Part shown: positions 9,904-62,058 of the stretch, one piece after another | Layout of the letters: every line of letters starts with the position of its first letter | Numbering within the stretch: the first letter of the stretch is position 1 | DNA from: a virus | Length of the DNA: 64,000 nucleotides | Virus record (IMG/VR): IMGVR_UViG_3300021598_001506 | Coordinates: 1-64,000 of that record | Reading direction: 5' to 3' (one strand) | Made by a program: the position numbers and the translations under genes | Notes under the pieces: model-generated | Database searches by the model: none | What the model saw: the letters and a program-made list of their open reading frames with translations, nothing else | Told to the model about the DNA's origin: nothing

Positions 9904-11085
9904 ATGTTGCGCAACCTCAGCGAGTTATTCTTAGCAGCTACTCTTTTAATTTATGTTGTTCCATACATTATTTGGAAAGTCTTTAAAACTGACAACTTTG
10001 TCCCACTACCAATTATTCAGATTATCTCTGGTCTTCTTCTAGGACCAGCAGTTCTTGGCTCTTTACACCCTGAGTTCTTCAACTACTTATTTACTAAAGA
10101 CAATATCAATGTCTTGAGTGGAGTAGCGTGGCTTGGCATCATCTTCTTTGTGTGGTCAGCAGGAGTCCATTTAGATATAAAAGCAGCCTTTACAAATAAG
10201 AAAGACACCTTCACAACAGCATCACTAGCCTTAACTGGTCCTCTAGTTTTTGGTTCTATCTTTGCTTTTATTATCTATGACCGAGGTCCTTGGGCAGGAG
10301 AACAGGCAGCAACTTGGCAGTTTGTTCTTGCTGTGGGTATGGGCATGGCTGTAACAGCGCTACCAATTTTGGTTTTGTTGATGGAAAAGCTTGGCATTTT
10401 TAATGGACCTATAGGAAGAAGAGTCCTAACTTATGCAAGCTTAGATGATATTTTTATTTGGGTTGTTTTAGCCATAATCATTATGGATTGGGATAGGTCT
10501 CTACGACAGCTAATCTTCCTCCCAATTTTTGCTTTGGCAGCTTATGGCTTAAACGCATTAGTAAAGACTCTTAAAAACAAACAAGACATCTGGTACATAA
10601 CAATTGTTTGGACTATTGCAGTTGCCCTTGCTGCAGACTGGTCAGGACTGCACTACATCGTAGGTGGTTTTATGGCTGGTGCAGTAATGAAGAAGGAGTG
10701 GTTTGAAGAAAAGCAACTCGAGGTCTTCAAAAACACAGTCTTAATTTTGATGATGCCTACATACTTCTTACTAACTGGGTTAAGGACCAGTTGGGAAGTA
10801 AGCGGTATTGCAGTTCTTCTCTTGGCTCTTGGTTTGTTTGTTGTTCAGTTTGCTGGGAAGACTACTGGTGTTTTTGTGGCAAGCAAGATTCTAGGTTGGC
10901 CTAAGGGCGAGTGGAAACTTATGGGCACTTTGCTTCAGACAAAGGCTCTTATAGAAATCATATTTGCTACGATTCTTTTGGATAAAGCCATCATTACAGC
11001 AGACATGTTTACAGCTCTCTTGCTTATGGCTGTAATCAGTACGATGGTGACGATACCAATAACCAGAAAGCTTTTAAAAGCTTAA
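9904..11085 (+). CDS. Cation:proton antiporter (CPA2/Kef-NapA type)
   Basis: A 393-aa integral membrane protein with about a dozen hydrophobic segments, matching the Na+/H+ exchanger domain PF00999. 'ISGLLLGPAVLG' (about 41-52) is the family's early conserved turn. 'LTYASLDDIFIW' carries the paired aspartates Asp181-Asp182 that bind the cation and protons in electrogenic CPA2 proteins. The regulatory RCK/TrkA-N domain of many Kef proteins is absent. The gene has its own spacing after a terminator. A full-length antiporter is unusual in a phage; it may adjust pH or sodium balance in infected cells. Confidence 0.85.
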   Translation: MLRNLSELFLAATLLIYVVPYIIWKVFKTDNFVPLPIIQIISGLLLGPAVLGSLHPEFFNYLFTKDNINVLSGVAWLGIIFFVWSAGVHLDIKAAFTNKKDTFTTASLALTGPLVFGSIFAFIIYDRGPWAGEQAATWQFVLAVGMGMAVTALPILVLLMEKLGIFNGPIGRRVLTYASLDDIFIWVVLAIIIMDWDRSLRQLIFLPIFALAAYGLNALVKTLKNKQDIWYITIVWTIAVALAADWSGLHYIVGGFMAGAVMKKEWFEEKQLEVFKNTVLILMMPTYFLLTGLRTSWEVSGIAVLLLALGLFVVQFAGKTTGVFVASKILGWPKGEWKLMGTLLQTKALIEIIFATILLDKAIITADMFTALLLMAVISTMVTIPITRKLLKA

Positions 11086-16689: not shown

Positions 16690-17451
16690 CTAATTGTTAG
16701 TTTCAACAATTCGAGTATAGGTAATTACAACGTCTCCATTACCTTTACCCCATTTGCTGATAGATGTAATTTCTGTCTTGTCACCTCTTTTACCGCCAGA
16801 GTGGAGCATCTCATCTGGTCCAGTGTAAATGGCAGTATGGAAGGCTCCGCTAGAGCCTTTGTAGGTGAATGCGACTATGTCTCCGATTTTAGGCTCATCA
16901 ACAAAGGTTCCCGCTTCTTTTTGAGCAGAAGCGCTGTGATAGAGGTTGATTCCCAAGTGGGCGTATGTCCAGAGCACAAGCCCCGAACAGTCCCAAGCAT
17001 CAGGGGTAGAGCCACCTAGGGCGTACCATGTTTTACCGACATAGTTTTTGGTACGGGCGATTGCCGTATTGAGGTTCTTTGTGTCGTTAGCTATCTTTTC
17101 CAAGCGAGCAATCTCTGCCTCAAGTTCGGCTTGCTTGCGCTCAGCATCTGATTCAAGTTTGTCTTGTCTTGCTTTTTCTTGAGCCATCCAGTCAATAGAA
17201 CCGATTTCAGGAGTTTCTATCCTGATAACGGGCCCACCTACTACGGATGACACTTTTACTGGCCCCGAAAGGATGTCTGTGACCTGCACAGGATTGACAA
17301 TCTTTGGAGCTGGGATTGTTACTAGTTGTTCTTTTGTTACTTCTTGAATCTGTTCTGGTACCGCTTCTGCAAGAGCAAAAGCAGCACTTGTACCTGTAGT
17401 TATTACTAGTGCTGTCATTGCACCAGCTGTAATGAAACTTTTCCTTTTCAT
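16690..17451 (-). CDS. Secreted NlpC/P60 peptidoglycan hydrolase
   Basis: A 253-aa protein with a Sec signal peptide (MKRKSFITAGAMTALVITTG, cleavage after about residue 28), a Pro/Val-rich stretch, a coiled coil (about 90-125, 'RKQAELEAEIARLEKIAN') and a C-terminal NlpC/P60 domain. The catalytic Cys (about 155) is in 'DAWDCSGLVLW', His (about 204) in 'FHTAIYTG', and another His is in 'MLHSGG'. The layout is that of actinobacterial RipA-like secreted D-Glu-mDAP endopeptidases, not a phage endolysin. A Crp-type palindrome lies upstream. Confidence 0.87.
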   Translation of the reverse strand: MKRKSFITAGAMTALVITTGTSAAFALAEAVPEQIQEVTKEQLVTIPAPKIVNPVQVTDILSGPVKVSSVVGGPVIRIETPEIGSIDWMAQEKARQDKLESDAERKQAELEAEIARLEKIANDTKNLNTAIARTKNYVGKTWYALGGSTPDAWDCSGLVLWTYAHLGINLYHSASAQKEAGTFVDEPKIGDIVAFTYKGSSGAFHTAIYTGPDEMLHSGGKRGDKTEITSISKWGKGNGDVVITYTRIVETNN

Positions 17452-20015: not shown

Positions 20016-20045
20016 TTTGTATTGCCGTGCGTTGGAGGCAGTGCT

Positions 20046-23000
20046 TTGTTGCATACATTTTTTGGAAGAGCCGAACTTAATTTAAAAAGATTTTGGCTAT
20101 CAGCTGCTGCCACCCCTTTTATAATTTTTCTCATCGGGGTTTTAACTCCACAAGCTGCACATGCTTCTGACGAACAGGGGGTCCAACCAACACCAGACCC
20201 AAACCAAGCGCCAAGTTCAAATGCGTCGTCGGGAGGTGATCCACAAGCTTCTTCCAGTGGCTCAGCGCAAGAGCAAATCACAGAAGTAGCAACCGCAGTA
20301 GCAACAGCGGAATCTGCAGTAACACAGTTGGAAACAAAAGTTGACCAGATTTTGGAGGTAGCAACATCAGTATCTCAACCTTCTACGCAAGTAACGGAAT
20401 CAATATCTAATGCTCAGACTGCGGTAACAGAAGCTTCAAGTGCTACCCAACAAGCCAGTGAATCAGTACAAACAGCACAGACAGCAGTTACCGTATCGCA
20501 AATTGCCAATCAAACTTTGGCCCAAGCAACCTCCGCAGTTGAGGCCCAAACCGCAGTAGTAGAGCAAGCAACCACAGCTGTCTCTACAGCTGAAGCAGCA
20601 TTAAATACTGCAACAACAACTTTTTATCAAGAGAATGCAAATCTAGGGACTGCAACTTCTACACTTTCCACTGCTCAAACTACAGCAGAAAATGCAGCAG
20701 CAGAGGCAGCAGCAACAAATACAACTACAACAGTCACAGAAACTTTTGCTAACAACACTACTAGCGTTGTAGCAATTACTACTGGTGGGGTTTCAGTCAC
20801 AACAACACCAACCAGTAATGTATCAATTAGCGGACCTTGGAATACACCTCAAACAGCTGGTCCAGCTCTTGTTCTTATGAACCCAACTAATGATGTTGTT
20901 ATCAATGTAAATCCTTCAGGTCAAGGAACTGTCACCTCTGTGACTATGGGCGTGTATGCCAAAAATGGCGATACAACTATGACTGCAACAAATGCAGATG
21001 GAACAACTAATACAGAAGTAGTCAACAATAACGTTTCTTCCCAGACACAAGCAGTTCAATATACTTCTACAGAGACTGTTACTGGAACAAACATCCAAAC
21101 AGTTACTATCACAAAAGATAATGATTATTACGTTGTAGACAATATTGCTATAACAAAAACAACTTCCGACCCTGCTCTAGTAGCAGCGGCAGAAGCAGCA
21201 ACTGCAGCTCTTGCTTCAGCACAGGCTGCCCACGATGCACAACTAGCAGTTCGTGATGCATCCCACGCTGCGTGGGGTGCAGCCCACGTTGCTGCTAATG
21301 CTGCTCAGGCAACTCTTTCTACAGAGCAAACAGCGCTTACACAAGCTCAGACAACTCAGGAGACGGCTCAGGATTTAGCTACAGTGTCCACTGCTGGCGC
21401 TGTTTCGGCAGTTGCAACAGCTCAGGCTTCAGTAGAGCCAGCGATGACCGCCGTTGTGGAAGCAGTTGTAGTAGTTGCTCAGACTCAGGTTGTTGTTGCT
21501 GAAGCAGCAGTTGAAACCGTATCTAACACACTTCAAACAGTTGTTGCTTCAGCAGACGCTCTTCCACTACAAAAACCAGAAGTTACTGCAGTAGTTGATG
21601 CTGCTGTTGATGCAGTAGTCGAAGCACAAGAAGCGGTTGAAGCAGCAAAGACTGCTATGGAGACTGCAGTGACACTGGCAGAGACAGCATTAACAGAACC
21701 AGAAGCAGCAGCAGTAGTTGCAGATAAAACAGAGGTTTTAACTCAAGCTCAAGCTGCAGTAGACGCTCAAGAAGTTGTGGTCGCTACTGCAACTACAACA
21801 GAAGCGACTGCTCAAGCTGTTGTGGACTCTGCTACAACTCCAGGATTGAAAGTACAGGTCTACAGCGTTAATGGGCAAAACAACGCTCCAACTCTTCCTA
21901 CAAATGCTGTTCCTATTCACACCACTACAGATACAAACGGAATTAATGAGCAGTGGGGTAGCGGAACAGTTGCTGGCTCATACCGTAATGAAGATGTCAT
22001 TGTTAAATACACAGGCAACTGGACTCCTCAAACAACTGGAACTCAATATCTGCATGCACCAGCAGATGATGGCACAAAGCTTTACCTAGATGGAGAGCTT
22101 GTTATAAATGACTGGTATGACAAAGGTGGTGGCGGTTCTACAGCCGATGTAGAAACAACCGCTGGAGTAGGAAAAGTTTTTGAGTTCTGGTATTACGAAA
22201 ATGGTGGCGGAGCTGCTGTATCTTTATTGCGCTTTACAGATAATGGTTGGGAAGTTATTCCCGGTTCTGAGTTCACTCAATCAACAGCTACAACTCAACA
22301 GCTACAGGCACTAGCAACTGCCGAAGCAAATCTTGCAGCAGAGCAAACCGAACTTGAAGTTCTTGAGACAGTAGAAAATGTTGCCCAACAAAATTTAGCA
22401 AATGCTCAAGCAGATTTGCAAGAAGCTGAGAATGCTACAGCTGCTATGGAGACAGCCGTAGTTTTAGCTCAGACAGCAATTACAGAAACAGTTGAAGCAA
22501 TACAAGCTGTTCAAACTGCTCAAACAACCGTAGCTCAGGAAGTTATTTTTCAGAGCCCTATAGCTGCCCCGTCAAACATTGCAGTTACACAGTTATCAAA
22601 TGGAGATGTACAAGTTTCTTGGGACCCACCAACAGGTGTAATTTCTCCAGAACGTTATGCAATCTCTTGGTCAAATGGAAGTGGCGGATGGGGTGTAGCA
22701 ACTGGTAATGCGGGAGACGCTAATGCTCTTAATACAAGCATTGTTCTTTCAGCATCTTTGTTTGAGTCAACTGGTGGACTAGACACTACTTATCAAATTA
22801 GTGTTCGCTCCGATAATGACTCACTTGCTAAATATTCAGATGTAGTTGCAACTCAAATGTTTATTTCAGATCCCACCCCGGCTCCAGAACCTCAACCGAC
22901 TCCTCAGCCAGAACCAACTCCGAATCCAGAACCTCAACCAGAGCCGCAGCCTGAGCCCACACAGCCAGAACCGCAGCCAGAACCGCAGCCAGACCCACAA

Positions 23001-23894
23001 CCAGAACCAGAGCCAGAACCCACCACACCTGAGCCAGAACCTGAAATACCTGTGACACCTGAACCTCCTCTACCTGAACCTGAACCTGAAACCCCTACTG
23101 AGCCTGAACCTGAGACTCCTGTAGAGCCTGAACCTGAGACTCCTGTAGAGCCTGAACCTGAGACTCCTGTAGAGCCTGAACCTGAGACTCCTGTAGAGCC
23201 CGAAACACCAGTGGACCCCGAGACTCCTGTGGAGCCAGAACCAGAATCGCCAGAGCAACCAACAGACCCAGAACCTGAACCAGAATCACCAGAGCAACCA
23301 ACCGAACCCACAACACCTGAACCAACTCCTACCGAGCCTGAAGAAAAAGCTCCAGAAGCAATTATAGAAGATGCATTGGCGGATGGTGTTCTAACTGCTG
23401 AAGAAAAAGAAGCAGTGGTTGAAGCAATTTTGGAAGATCTAGCTCCAGGAGAAGCTGTAAGTTCAGAACAACTTGCTGAAGCTGGTATTACTTATGAAGA
23501 TTTGCCACCAGAGACTCCAGTTGAAACTAGAACTGACGAGGATGGCAACCCTGTCATAATTACTGCTGAGGTTGCTGCCGCTTTAGTTTTGTTGGAGAAC
23601 CCAGCAGAACTTATTGGCGAGATTTTTTCTGACCCAGGACAAGTGCTTCTAGCACTTGGAAGCATTGGTGCTGACATGTCAGAGGAAGAGCGAGAAGAGG
23701 CAGAAAAGATGGTTGTCGCAACTGTTGTTGCTGCTGGAGCTGCAATTAATGCTGCAGCTGCCGCAGCAGGAGCTGCTGGTTCTTCTAGCGGTGGAAGCGG
23801 TGGAAGCGGTGGAAGCGGTGGCGGTGGAGCGACTGGAAAAATGGATGGAACTAGAAGAAGAACTACTAGTGGAAAAGTTAGGAAGGTGAAATAA
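20046..23894 (+). CDS. Giant secreted surface protein with PA14, FN3 and Pro-Glu repeats
   Basis: About 1282 aa, starting at TTG 20046 or 20049 behind GGAGG. Residues about 1-40 form a signal peptide ending near 'PQAAHAS'. A long Ala/Thr/Gln-rich helical region follows (about 50-590). Then come a PA14 domain (about 600-750, '[20 protein letters not shown]'), another helical stretch, a fibronectin type III domain (about 838-938, 'DVQVSWDPP') and a Pro-Glu repeat wall-spanning-like region (about 942-1098). The end has an acidic helical part, an Ala-rich segment, a Gly-Ser linker and a basic tail. It resembles a host-type adhesin or wall-spanning protein rather than a virion part. No LPxTG motif is seen. 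Confidence 0.75.
23100..23195 (+). repeat. Four identical 24-bp tandem repeats
   Basis: Four head-to-tail copies encoding EPEPETPV, identical at the nucleotide level, followed by a diverged partial copy. Perfect identity suggests recent expansion by slippage. Confidence 0.85.
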
Positions 23895-24077
23895 ATGAAA
23901 AACTTCTTAAGAGATGTTCTAGACCAACTATGGACACTTTTGGGCATGTTTGTTGCTTGGATTGTTTTAGACGGCTCAGCAAAGACAATAGTTGGCTATG
24001 CAATTGTCTGGTCTACAGCCGTGTGGGTTATTACCTACAGACTAAGAAATCCAAAAGAAGAAGAGGGTGAAGAGTAA
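23895..24077 (+). CDS. Small membrane protein
   Basis: A 60-aa protein with two hydrophobic stretches ('LWTLLGMFVAWIVL' and 'IVGYAIVWSTAVWVITY') and an acidic tail (PKEEEGEE). The ATG directly follows the stop of the giant surface protein, so the two are probably expressed together. It might assist export or anchoring, which is inferred from position only. Confidence 0.6.
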   Translation: MKNFLRDVLDQLWTLLGMFVAWIVLDGSAKTIVGYAIVWSTAVWVITYRLRNPKEEEGEE

Positions 24078-57923: not shown

Positions 57924-59000
57924 ATGAAAGTAGCTATATACACAATCGCATTAAATGAACGACAGTTTGTTGATAAATGGTATGAAGCTTCAAAAGAAGC
58001 TGATTACTTGTTAATAGCCGATACAGGCTCCACAGACGGCACCGTTGAGCGTGCAAAAGAGCTTGGAATTAATGTAGTTGATGTTCGAGTATCCCCTTGG
58101 CGTTTTGATGACGCTAGAAACGCAGCAATGGCAGCTTTACCAATCGATATTGATATGTGTATCTCCCTTGATATGGATGAAGTAATTACTCCTAACTGGC
58201 GTCCACTGCTTGAAGCTGCATGGCAACGTGGAGTAACACGTCCTCGCTATAAGCACATTTGGTCTTGGAATGATGATGGAACTCCAGGTTTGGAATTCAG
58301 CTACGACCACATCCACACTCGGAAAAATTACCGCTGGCGTCATCCAGTGCATGAGTGTCTATATGTTTACGGACGCGAAGAAGTGCAAGAATGGATTGAA
58401 GGTTTAGAAACTCACCATCACCCAGACCCAACAAAATCGCGCTCTCAGTATCTACCCTTGCTGGCTCTCTCTGTTCAAGAAGACCCATACAACGACCGCA
58501 ATGCGTTCTACTATGGTCGAGAACTTTATTTCTATGGTCGCTACCAAGAAGCAGCAGTAGAGCTAAAGCGACACCTTGAACTCCCAACAGCTCGATGGGC
58601 ACCAGAGCGTGCTGCATCAATGCGTTTTATTGGTAAGAGCCTTCCTGCAGAGGCAGAGATTTGGTTCCGTAAGGCTATTGATCAAGCTCCAGGACGCCGT
58701 GAACCTTTTGTTGATTTAGCAGAGTTGTACTATCAACGCAAGGACTGGCAGAAGTGTTATGAGGCAGCTAAAGATGCCATCGCTATTGCTGAAAAACCTT
58801 TAGAGTATTTGTGCGAAGCAAAAGCATGGGGAGCAGCCCCGCATGATTTTGCTGCAATTTCTGCTTACTATTTAGGTAAGTTTGAAGAAGCAGTAGAGCA
58901 TGCAAAGAACGCTTTTAGCATCGAGCCAGATAATGAAAGACTTGCAGAAAACCTTAAATTCTGTCTTAGCGCTATAAATCCAGAAGAAAAGAGTGTCTAG
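57924..59000 (+). CDS. Family 2 glycosyltransferase with TPR repeats
   Basis: A 358-aa protein. The N-terminal GT-A fold has 'IYTIALNERQFVDKWYEA' and 'LLIADTGSTDGTVERA' (about 29-44), plus a DxD-like 'SLDMDEV' (about 81-87). The second half is tetratricopeptide-like helices ('NAFYYGRELYFYGRYQEAAV', 'FEEAVEHAKNAFSIEPDNE'). GT2-TPR fusions often glycosylate proteins or peptide chains, with the TPR binding the acceptor, although this is not universal. It overlaps the halogenase start by one base. Confidence 0.85.
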   Translation: MKVAIYTIALNERQFVDKWYEASKEADYLLIADTGSTDGTVERAKELGINVVDVRVSPWRFDDARNAAMAALPIDIDMCISLDMDEVITPNWRPLLEAAWQRGVTRPRYKHIWSWNDDGTPGLEFSYDHIHTRKNYRWRHPVHECLYVYGREEVQEWIEGLETHHHPDPTKSRSQYLPLLALSVQEDPYNDRNAFYYGRELYFYGRYQEAAVELKRHLELPTARWAPERAASMRFIGKSLPAEAEIWFRKAIDQAPGRREPFVDLAELYYQRKDWQKCYEAAKDAIAIAEKPLEYLCEAKAWGAAPHDFAAISAYYLGKFEEAVEHAKNAFSIEPDNERLAENLKFCLSAINPEEKSV

Positions 59001-60505
59001 TGAAATTTGTAGTCTGCGGTGGTGGAACGGCTGGATGGCTTACCGCTCTAACCATTCACTCTAGTAACCCAAAGTTTCATGAAGTAGTGGTTATAGAATC
59101 ACAAAAAATAGGAATTATTGGAGCTGGAGAGGCTACAAGCGGTCTTCTCTATGATGTATTAGATGGCTCTACCTTATTTGGAAATAATCAAACAATAAAT
59201 CCAAACAAAGTGGCTTTTGATTTTGCAGAGTTTGCTAAGAAAGTCGATGCTGTACCTAAGTATGCACTTAAGCACATCAACTGGGCTAAAGACAAAGGCT
59301 CTTATTGGGCACCAATTAACGGCTCAGAAACTTCTAAGCGCTCTCCTGACCATCTGTTTAATTATGTTGTAGCAGAGTTTGGTCCTGAAAAAGCTTATCT
59401 ATCTTCTGTATTAGGGCAGTCTTATGATCTAAATAAACTCCCACCTTCTGGAGGTTATGGGTTCCAGTTTGATGCCCACAAAGTAGCTAAGTTTTTACGA
59501 GAGTATATAACTACAACCACAAAAACTACTCATATAGATTCAATTATCAAGGATGTTACTGTCACTAGCGATGGTCTAGTTGAAAGCGTGACTATCGAAG
59601 ATGGTCAAGTTATTGAAGGAGATTTCTTCATTGACGCTACTGGATTTGTTAGATTATTGGCAAACAAAGTTGGTATTGGGTGGACAGACTACAAAAACCA
59701 ACTTCTTGTAGACAGAGCTATGCCTTTTATAGTTCCATACAAAGAAGAAGAAAAAGTACAACCTGTAACAGTTGCAGAAGCTCTCTCTTCTGGTTGGATG
59801 TGGCGAACTCCTACAGGAGGCCGCCGAGGTTGTGGGTATGTCTATAGCAGTGCGTTTATTTCTGAAGATGAAGCTCAAAAAGAAGCTGAAAAAATTATGG
59901 GGCATCCTATCGAGCCAATTAAGCATATTAAATATGAATCAGGCCGAGTGGACCAATTTTGGAAAGGCAATGTTTTAGTAGTTGGCCTTGCAAGCTCTTT
60001 TATTGAACCTTTAGAGGCAACCAGTATTCATGCAACTATTATGCAAATCTTTAGTTTCTGTCAAGAATATCTTTCAGATACAAAAGAGAAAACTTTAAAC
60101 CCTGCCTCAATACAAAAATACAATGCTAAAACTGAAAAAATGTATGAATACTATAAAGACTTTACAGTGTTCCACTATCAAGGTGGAAGAGAAGATTCTG
60201 AGTTCTGGAAAACTATTAAGTTCGACAAGATTACCTCTCCTGCTGTAGAAAACTACATCGAGAGGTCAAAGAGCAGAATCCCAAGTGTTCTTCATTTTAT
60301 GGATTTCTGGGGCGTTGATTCTCTGTGGAAGTGGACATTAGCTGGTCTTGGATATGTATCCAGAGAGCAAGCGATGGATGAGTTAGTTCAGTTTGACCAA
60401 TTTGAATACGCTCAAAACCACTACAGAGCTTTTAGAGAAGACATGCGAAAAGCACATGAAAATAGTAGACCTTTTGAGATGAATCCGAAAGACTTTATTA
60501 TTTAA
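59000..60505 (+). CDS. Flavin-dependent (tryptophan-type) halogenase
   Basis: A 501-aa enzyme of the Trp_halogenase family (PF04820). It has an FAD-binding 'GGGTAGWLTAL' (7-17), 'GEATSG' (43-48), a lysine in 'KYALKHINWA' (K91 region, near the position of the catalytic Lys of PrnA-type enzymes), 'GWMWRTP' (about 264-270, the WxWxIP-type motif) and 'ASSFIEPLEATSIHATIMQI' near the substrate pocket. It would use FADH2, oxygen and halide to halogenate an electron-rich group. The start is GTG 59000. Similar genes occur in cyanophages. Substrate unknown. Confidence 0.9.
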   Translation: MKFVVCGGGTAGWLTALTIHSSNPKFHEVVVIESQKIGIIGAGEATSGLLYDVLDGSTLFGNNQTINPNKVAFDFAEFAKKVDAVPKYALKHINWAKDKGSYWAPINGSETSKRSPDHLFNYVVAEFGPEKAYLSSVLGQSYDLNKLPPSGGYGFQFDAHKVAKFLREYITTTTKTTHIDSIIKDVTVTSDGLVESVTIEDGQVIEGDFFIDATGFVRLLANKVGIGWTDYKNQLLVDRAMPFIVPYKEEEKVQPVTVAEALSSGWMWRTPTGGRRGCGYVYSSAFISEDEAQKEAEKIMGHPIEPIKHIKYESGRVDQFWKGNVLVVGLASSFIEPLEATSIHATIMQIFSFCQEYLSDTKEKTLNPASIQKYNAKTEKMYEYYKDFTVFHYQGGREDSEFWKTIKFDKITSPAVENYIERSKSRIPSVLHFMDFWGVDSLWKWTLAGLGYVSREQAMDELVQFDQFEYAQNHYRAFREDMRKAHENSRPFEMNPKDFII

Positions 60506-61046
60506 GTTGTTGCTTCTTAAGTTTTTTAGCTAAACGCTTTTTCTCCAGCTTTAGAGCTTTTTTCTCTCGAATGCGTGCTCTTTTTTCAGATTTATCAATA
60601 CGCTCTTGTTTATAAGCTTCGATAGCATTTACGCTAGTTCGACTGCGCCAAGAAAAGCCACATACCGTACATGTGACTATCTTGGCGACAGTCCACCTAC
60701 CACCACCAGGAATTTCCTGAGAACTTGTTTCTAGCTTTGACGGACGAGCTGAACAATAAGGACAGTGCGGGTATCTACGGCGTTTTATCTCTTCACCCTT
60801 GTAAGAGACAGAGAGTGCTCGACGTATCTCGCTCTCGTCTTTGCCACCCCACGTACCCCAAATCTGTCGGTGCTCTAAAGCCCACTGCAAACACTGAGCC
60901 CGTACAGGGCATTCGTAGCAGAGGTTTTTTGCATCGTACTTTTGCTTAGGGTCTTTAGAAAAAAACCAGTCTTTGAAATGAGTATTTTGAGGCTGAGCAC
61001 AAAGGGCTTCAGACTGCCATTCTATGTTGTTAGCTGGTTTCCACAC
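60498..61046 (-). CDS. WhiB-type protein fused to a zinc-ribbon and basic tail
   Basis: A 182-aa protein. Residues 1-75 are a WhiB (Wbl) domain with four Fe-S-binding cysteines (Cys16, Cys43, Cys46, Cys52) and the GTWGG turn (64-68). A second module has Cys95/Cys98 ('CPYC') and Cys126/Cys129 ('CTVC'), a zinc ribbon. A Lys/Arg-rich helix closes the protein. Wbl proteins bind the housekeeping sigma factor. A phage WhiB may redirect or silence host transcription. Its stop overlaps the halogenase end by eight bases. Confidence 0.88.
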   Translation of the reverse strand: MWKPANNIEWQSEALCAQPQNTHFKDWFFSKDPKQKYDAKNLCYECPVRAQCLQWALEHRQIWGTWGGKDESEIRRALSVSYKGEEIKRRRYPHCPYCSARPSKLETSSQEIPGGGRWTVAKIVTCTVCGFSWRSRTSVNAIEAYKQERIDKSEKRARIREKKALKLEKKRLAKKLKKQQLK

Positions 61047-61779: not shown

Positions 61780-62058
61780 TTACGCTGTTTTCTTGTAGGG
61801 GAATGGCCTACGTTTGCTCTTTATATGCTTCCTGTCGGCAGGGCTTAAACCGCCCCACAAACCAAACTCTTCGTTTTCTAATCCCCACAAAGCACATTCA
61901 ACAAGATGTGCGCAACTCTTACAGATTTTTCTAGCACCTTCGTAATTTATCTCTGGTGTTCCTGGCAAACTGGGTTCATCTCTATCTTCAGCAAAAAAGA
62001 AGTTTCCTCCTACCTGAGCACAAAGGGGGTCTTCATACTGCCAAGGCGGACGAATCAT
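61780..62058 (-). CDS. WhiB-family transcriptional regulator
   Basis: A 92-aa compact Wbl protein with Cys13, Cys46, Cys49 and Cys55 as the Fe-S ligands, then 'EFGLWGGLSPADRKHI', the G[VIL]WGG turn and basic segment typical of the family. It is close in length to cellular WhiB proteins. A second Wbl protein lies at 60498-61046. Confidence 0.92.
   Translation of the reverse strand: MIRPPWQYEDPLCAQVGGNFFFAEDRDEPSLPGTPEINYEGARKICKSCAHLVECALWGLENEEFGLWGGLSPADRKHIKSKRRPFPYKKTA

Follow-up and report, generated by a model that had tools for sequence, protein, structure and literature searches.

A two-gene module of uncultured actinophages encodes a predicted membrane-anchored surface protein with exchangeable heads

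In a stretch of viral DNA of 64,000 nucleotides, referred to here as the window and forming part of a 66.4-kb virus record, two genes follow each other directly: the first encodes a large protein, A, predicted to be secreted and held in the membrane, and the second a very small protein, B, with two hydrophobic stretches (Table 1). The preliminary description of this locus had reported a secreted protein of 1280 residues, and the open reading frame is indeed present; its likely start is the TTG codon at 20046, which has the sequence GGAGG seven bases upstream and brings the protein to 1282 residues. An Rfam search gave no match at the module, promoter-like sites there were in no excess over shuffled sequences, and terminator-like sites, sought in the same scan, exceeded the shuffles.

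Table 1. Features of the A and B genes in the window
Feature	Coordinates	Strand	Basis
Ribosome-binding site GGAGG (putative)	20034..20038	+	Read from sequence; role from spacing
Protein A, 1282 aa, predicted secreted, membrane-anchored surface protein	20046..23894	+	Open reading frame; viral relatives
Signal peptide of A (predicted), end AHA/SD	20046..20165	+	Sequence; signal-peptide-like N-termini across the family
D1, CBM-like beta-sandwich of A	20712..21185	+	AlphaFold2 model, Foldseek
PA14 domain of A, Asp-Asp-Gly (D-cis-D type) motif	21834..22226	+	Pfam PF07691, alignment
Fibronectin type III-like domain of A	22548..22850	+	Alignment with solved FN3 domains
Pro-Glu repeat spacer of A, about 176 aa	22854..23381	+	Composition
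Conserved C-terminal domain of A	23397..23891	+	Alignment; low-confidence model
Predicted transmembrane anchor helix of A	23709..23777	+	Hydropathy; long helix in model
Basic C-terminal tail of A, 14 residues	23850..23891	+	Sequence
Protein B, 60 aa, two hydrophobic stretches, directly behind A	23895..24077	+	

Much of the layout proposed earlier for A could be recognized, including the signal peptide, the long Ala-rich helices, which appear as Ala/Thr/Val-rich stretches of coiled-coil type, the PA14 domain, the Pro-Glu repeats, and the basic tail. Features that had gone unmentioned are the D1 beta-sandwich, the conserved C-terminal domain, the swapping of ectodomains, and the size of the family. 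The C-terminal domain, called here the anchor domain, is composed of a small part with helices and a beta-hairpin, a hydrophobic helix, a Gly-rich linker, and the basic tail, which in homologues mostly ends in RRKP or a similar sequence. Wall-spanning surface proteins of the sortase type in Gram-positive bacteria likewise combine a signal peptide, a head, a proline-rich spacer, a hydrophobic helix at the C-terminus, and a tail of basic residues. Protein A resembles them in layout but differs in that it lacks LPxTG and is accompanied by a small membrane partner instead of a sortase; no LPxTG-type motif precedes the C-terminal helix in any of the 61 homologues whose C-termini were read. The likeness of the C-terminus to a sortase signal had raised the idea that B is a sorting enzyme, which was rejected because B is far too small and LPxTG is missing. 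Nor does the signal peptide of A lead into a lipobox cysteine, its place being taken by the AHA/SD junction; the only cysteine of the open reading frame lies upstream of 20046, and none follows.

Export and anchoring were scored with simple, rule-based hydropathy measures, using as controls the other open reading frames of at least 250 residues in the same loci. An N-terminus resembling a signal peptide was found in 127 of 128 complete A homologues, compared with 96 of 469 control frames, and the best C-terminal 16-mer reached a hydropathy of at least 1.8 in 91% of A proteins and 7% of controls. The anchor helix is Ala/Gly-rich and only moderately hydrophobic, with a median of 1.95 for the best 16-mers, which speaks against membrane anchoring. 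In a structure model of the anchor domain, which is of low confidence, the C-terminal helix spans residues 96-127; the significant viral structure matches of this low-confidence model are all to other proteins of uncultured phages, and two matches are annotated as TerB-like and SUEL lectin. By these hydropathy rules, A is predicted, with good support, to be exported and anchored in a membrane.

The coupling of A to a 60-residue membrane protein proved stronger than had been claimed. B lies directly 3' of A in all 61 complete homologues, at a spacing of -7 to 0 bases, and downstream of A in each of the 80 best anchor-domain loci out of at least 546 confirmed. Its homologues measure 55-61 residues, possess two hydrophobic stretches, carry charged residues at the C-terminus, and share the core motif WTLLGMFxAWxVLDGSAKxxVGY, with 18 invariant columns in the alignment. 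Departures from the arrangement are few: one extra gene for a small membrane protein stands between A and B in L287 and L297, and at L133:744 a short, secreted-looking frame without the anchor domain precedes B, apparently a real exception. B thus appears to be a near-obligate partner of A within a two-gene module.

This module is real and widespread. A search with A retrieved 109 related stretches in viral contigs, the anchor domain at least 546 confirmed matches, and B alone at least 600, and the pair is carried, as judged from these sequence matches, by hundreds of contigs of uncultured actinophages. Exactly one copy is present in 29 of 30 contigs, the thirtieth (L016) ending inside A. Among 160 distinct module loci, A occupies a single frame in 140, is split in 9 and truncated in 6; one further locus is too short to judge, and four have no recognizable anchor domain, two of them starting at a contig edge, one (L067) looking frame-disrupted, and the last being the L133 exception. 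Neither the anchor domain nor B belongs to a family in Pfam, PHROGs, NCBIfam or PADLOC, and tblastn with both found nothing among 50,697 phage records.

The heads of these proteins often carry domains of carbohydrate-binding type. The PA14 domain of A, which had been proposed earlier, matches PF07691 at 32.6 bits, above the curated cut-off of 24 (E = 8e-8), and its closest solved structure is the PA14 domain of RsgI3 (6qe7, 2e-31), while the adhesin structure 6m8m is matched at 3e-7. The residues D78-D79-G80 are invariant in 26 aligned sequences and align with the Asp-Asp-Gly of 6m8m, a D-cis-D calcium motif as read from the sequence. Bacterial adhesins use PA14 domains to bind sugars, and in MhPA14, the Marinobacter adhesin domain of 6m8m, the Asp-Asp motif binds both Ca2+ and sugar (PMC6650083). 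The PA14 domain of A has the predicted fold and the Asp-Asp motif in common with MhPA14 and RsgI3, which are bacterial proteins, whereas A is a phage protein. D1 was modeled with AlphaFold2 at a mean pLDDT of 86.6, and Foldseek matched it to CBM29, CBM22 and CBM61 and to a pectate-lyase CBM (E ~1e-3, TMq 0.44-0.56), as well as weakly to phage tail and tailspike proteins; the modeled D1 therefore resembles carbohydrate-binding modules in fold, which is no proof of binding. The FN3-like domain has no Pfam match when A is used singly, but an alignment of 14 sequences matches solved FN3 domains at 5e-5. Glycan binding by A is suggested by analogy, since the Asp-Asp-Gly motif invariant in its PA14 domain binds calcium and sugar in MhPA14 and since D1 is CBM-like.

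Ectodomains range from short to about 1370 residues, and clustering 128 of them with thresholds of 40% identity and 60% coverage gives 87 groups. Pfam recognizes PA14 in 6 of 10 ectodomain representatives (5 above cut-off), D1, PA14, and FN3 are combined in different ways, and a proline-rich spacer is present in 102 of 128 homologues; a PA14-D1-PA14 class may really be D1-PA14, since its domain boundaries overlap in the profile matches. Some pairs of loci have near-identical DNA downstream. In L202 and L203 these flanks are 98.5% identical in nucleotides and the anchor domains 99%, with ectodomains at 33%; the corresponding values for flank, head, and anchor domain are 92.5, 29 and 84% for L013/L102, 94.1, 34 and 86% for L086/L189, and 87.8, 13 and 73% for L145/L223, and L076/L077 likewise differ by an ectodomain swapped on a fixed backbone. 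Other close pairs retain the head, and in a few the head is retained while the anchor domain differs. Near-identical phages thus appear to exchange their heads but to keep anchor and B. It was also observed that L023 and L024, which are of one phage type, encode A proteins of 1272 and 1156 residues that are near-identical at start and end.

A is unsplit in the window, but in ten relatives (L092, L100, L103, L104, L106, L107, L164, L165, L167, and L168) the head frame stops and the anchor domain resumes in the -1 frame, an arrangement noted, for example, at 5365-5658 in L092, 7663-7929 in L103, 4380-4721 in L104, 7729-8001 in L106, and 7654-8001 in L107. A slippery heptamer of the form X XXY YYZ stands directly before the UAA stop in all nine split genes measured, as C CCA AAA in five, T TTA AAA in three and A AAA AAA in one, and L100, which is cut at the contig start, has the same kind of junction as judged by eye. 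Such a heptamer occurs at 17 of 1883 distinct ends of open reading frames of at least 150 residues, and since nine of these are the split A genes, the background is 8 in 1874. A stem-loop is predicted a few bases past the stop in eight split genes (L100 uncounted), with z-scores of -1.3 to -3.4 and weak covariation, and the case for frameshifting consequently rests on the heptamers. A -1 frameshift in these relatives should yield both secreted and anchored forms of A.

Actinobacteria and the phages that infect them characteristically carry genes of the WhiB type (PMC10202952). Such genes exceeded the cut-off in 24 of 27 contigs, among them that of the window, and the hosts are therefore taken to be actinobacterial; the two WhiB-like genes of the window lie at 60816-61019 and 61825-62034 on the minus strand. 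Of 122 distinct loci, 73 have a CHAP-type endolysin cluster close to the module and 65 a gene for a small membrane protein; in the subgroup to which the window belongs, the terminase follows the module in place of the endolysin. Elsewhere in the window, tryptophan halogenase-like and beta-1,4-glycosyltransferase-like genes (59000-60505 and 57924-59000) lie at the end of the fiber-gene region, which belongs to a phage that also encodes collagen-like fibers and a tail-fiber-like protein. A Na+/H+ exchanger family protein is encoded at 9904-11085, and at 16690-17451 on the minus strand lies the gene of an NlpC/P60 protein whose N-terminus resembles a signal peptide; an exported cell-wall hydrolase of this sort is unusual in a phage.

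When 84,980 species genomes were scanned, the anchor domain gave no match and B a single locus, in the metagenome-assembled genome acMicro-4 AMD-COM-C5. There, A and B lie at L160:7012-8174 beside an apparent tRNA-Thr, alone among ordinary chromosomal genes, with no other phage genes and no endolysin nearby; this A measures 323 residues from its first start codon and comprises a signal peptide, Pro-Glu repeats, and the anchor domain. In the relative L313, whose flanks are about 94% identical, the site is empty, with about 160 bases where acMicro-4 has about 1.6 kb. The genome may be mis-assembled, yet host genes stand on both sides of the pair in a contig of 292 kb. Further bacterial copies were absent from 300 family, 19 genus, and 396 phylum genomes. 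The module thus appears to be nearly exclusive to phages, and since the acMicro-4 copy looks like a recent insertion, the gene flow that can be seen runs towards the host. The comparison with host surface proteins put forward earlier thus gives no support to recent transfer from them.

Two kinds of phage protein offer points of comparison. Superinfection-exclusion proteins of the Llp/Ltp type, such as Llp of phage T5, are encoded by phages, exported, attached to the membrane and exposed at the surface, where they block further infection (PMC9586334, PMC3952083). A is like them in being a phage-encoded, predicted exported and membrane-attached protein of the infected-cell surface. Llp and Ltp are small lipoproteins, whereas A is long and modular, with a C-terminal anchor of transmembrane type, heads of carbohydrate-binding type and a 60-residue partner, and no sequence relation between A and Llp/Ltp was seen. 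The PA14/glycosidase cargo of cryophages is exported, varies strongly between phage variants and ends in a conserved C-terminal sorting domain (PMC7468147). Both this cargo and A are encoded by phages, contain PA14, and are variable with a conserved C-terminal part, but the cargo employs a T9SS domain in hosts of the Bacteroidetes type, and A a membrane anchor plus B in actinobacterial hosts.

The reading that probably holds is that A and B form a Sec-exported, membrane-anchored cassette by which phages of aquatic actinobacteria display a surface protein on infected cells, with receptor masking, one of several possible functions, as the likeliest benefit. During infection, Sec would export A, the C-terminal helix would halt in the cytoplasmic membrane, leaving the basic tail on the inner side, and would pack with B, and the Pro-Glu rod would carry the head through the cell wall. 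The head would then cover or bind glycans on the infected cell. Blocked receptors would then keep further phages from adsorbing and released progeny from sticking to the spent host; adhesion to neighboring cells would be the second choice. In some relatives, how much of the protein is secreted and how much anchored would be determined by the -1 frameshift immediately ahead of the anchor. A masking or exclusion effect is suggested by analogy with T5 Llp and the cryophage PA14 cargo, and a role against surface glycans that change would agree with ectodomains being swapped while the anchor stays fixed.

A role in lysis would also fit the CHAP endolysin and small membrane-protein genes nearby. B would then act as a holin resembling class II or regulate lysis, and A would link the envelope or time the event; besides being short, B has an acidic tail and two stretches whose KD value exceeds 1.3, the shape of a class II holin, but no known holin family in Pfam, PHROGs or NCBIfam matched it above cut-off. 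Holins diverge quickly, whereas B retains its 18 invariant positions, other holin-like small membrane genes already stand beside the endolysin, lysis has no need for swappable lectin-like heads, and the chromosomal pair is kept with no endolysin nearby, all of which makes this role unlikely. Slightly less likely again is that A belongs to the virion, as a decoration, fiber or spike, and that its hydrophobic N-terminus is no true signal peptide, with B aiding assembly. PA14, FN3, and CBM-like folds are also known in phage fibers, D1 has its weak tail and tailspike matches, and in the window and its subgroup the module has structural or terminase genes as neighbors. Against this, tailed virions assemble in the cytoplasm, no tail or virion family in PHROGs matches A, the near-universal signal-peptide-like N-terminus is joined to a C-terminal hydrophobic segment, the phage has fibers of its own, and the chromosomal pair has no virion genes nearby. 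The earlier view that A is built for display rather than as a virion fiber is thus well supported by signal peptide, membrane anchor, membrane partner and the lack of a tail-fiber family, and also by the chromosomal pair with no other phage genes nearby; the effects proposed there, on adhesion, aggregation or superinfection, are candidates.

The same chromosomal pair, together with the sugar binding of PA14 in bacterial adhesins (PMC6650083), could be taken to mean that the module is adhesin cargo, derived from the host or serving the cell's own benefit and unrelated to phage adsorption. This seems the least probable of the alternatives, given a single bacterial match in the genome-collection scans and none in the family, genus, and phylum genomes, an insertion missing from a close relative, and a near-constant gene pair occurring once per phage genome. 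Masking or exclusion by a displayed protein is more likely than a lysis or virion role.

Phage-encoded surface proteins as a kind already have precedents; what stands apart is the construction, with a constant anchor, a near-obligate mini-partner and a swappable head, sometimes joined by a frameshift, of which no description was found in the databases and literature searched. Whether this amounts to a widespread and hitherto undescribed viral display machine, in which a constant anchor and an obligate 60-residue partner carry interchangeable lectin-like heads, with dual forms by frameshifting in some members, is evenly balanced. Few freshwater bacteria are as abundant as the actinobacteria, whose diversity at fine scale has been put down, by assumption, to predation by their phages (PMC10202952). 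If the cassette does redecorate the infected cell, it would connect phage genes, surface glycans, and exclusion in a concrete way that can be tested; B marks the system strongly, and the pair of anchor and B could become a display tool in actinobacteria.
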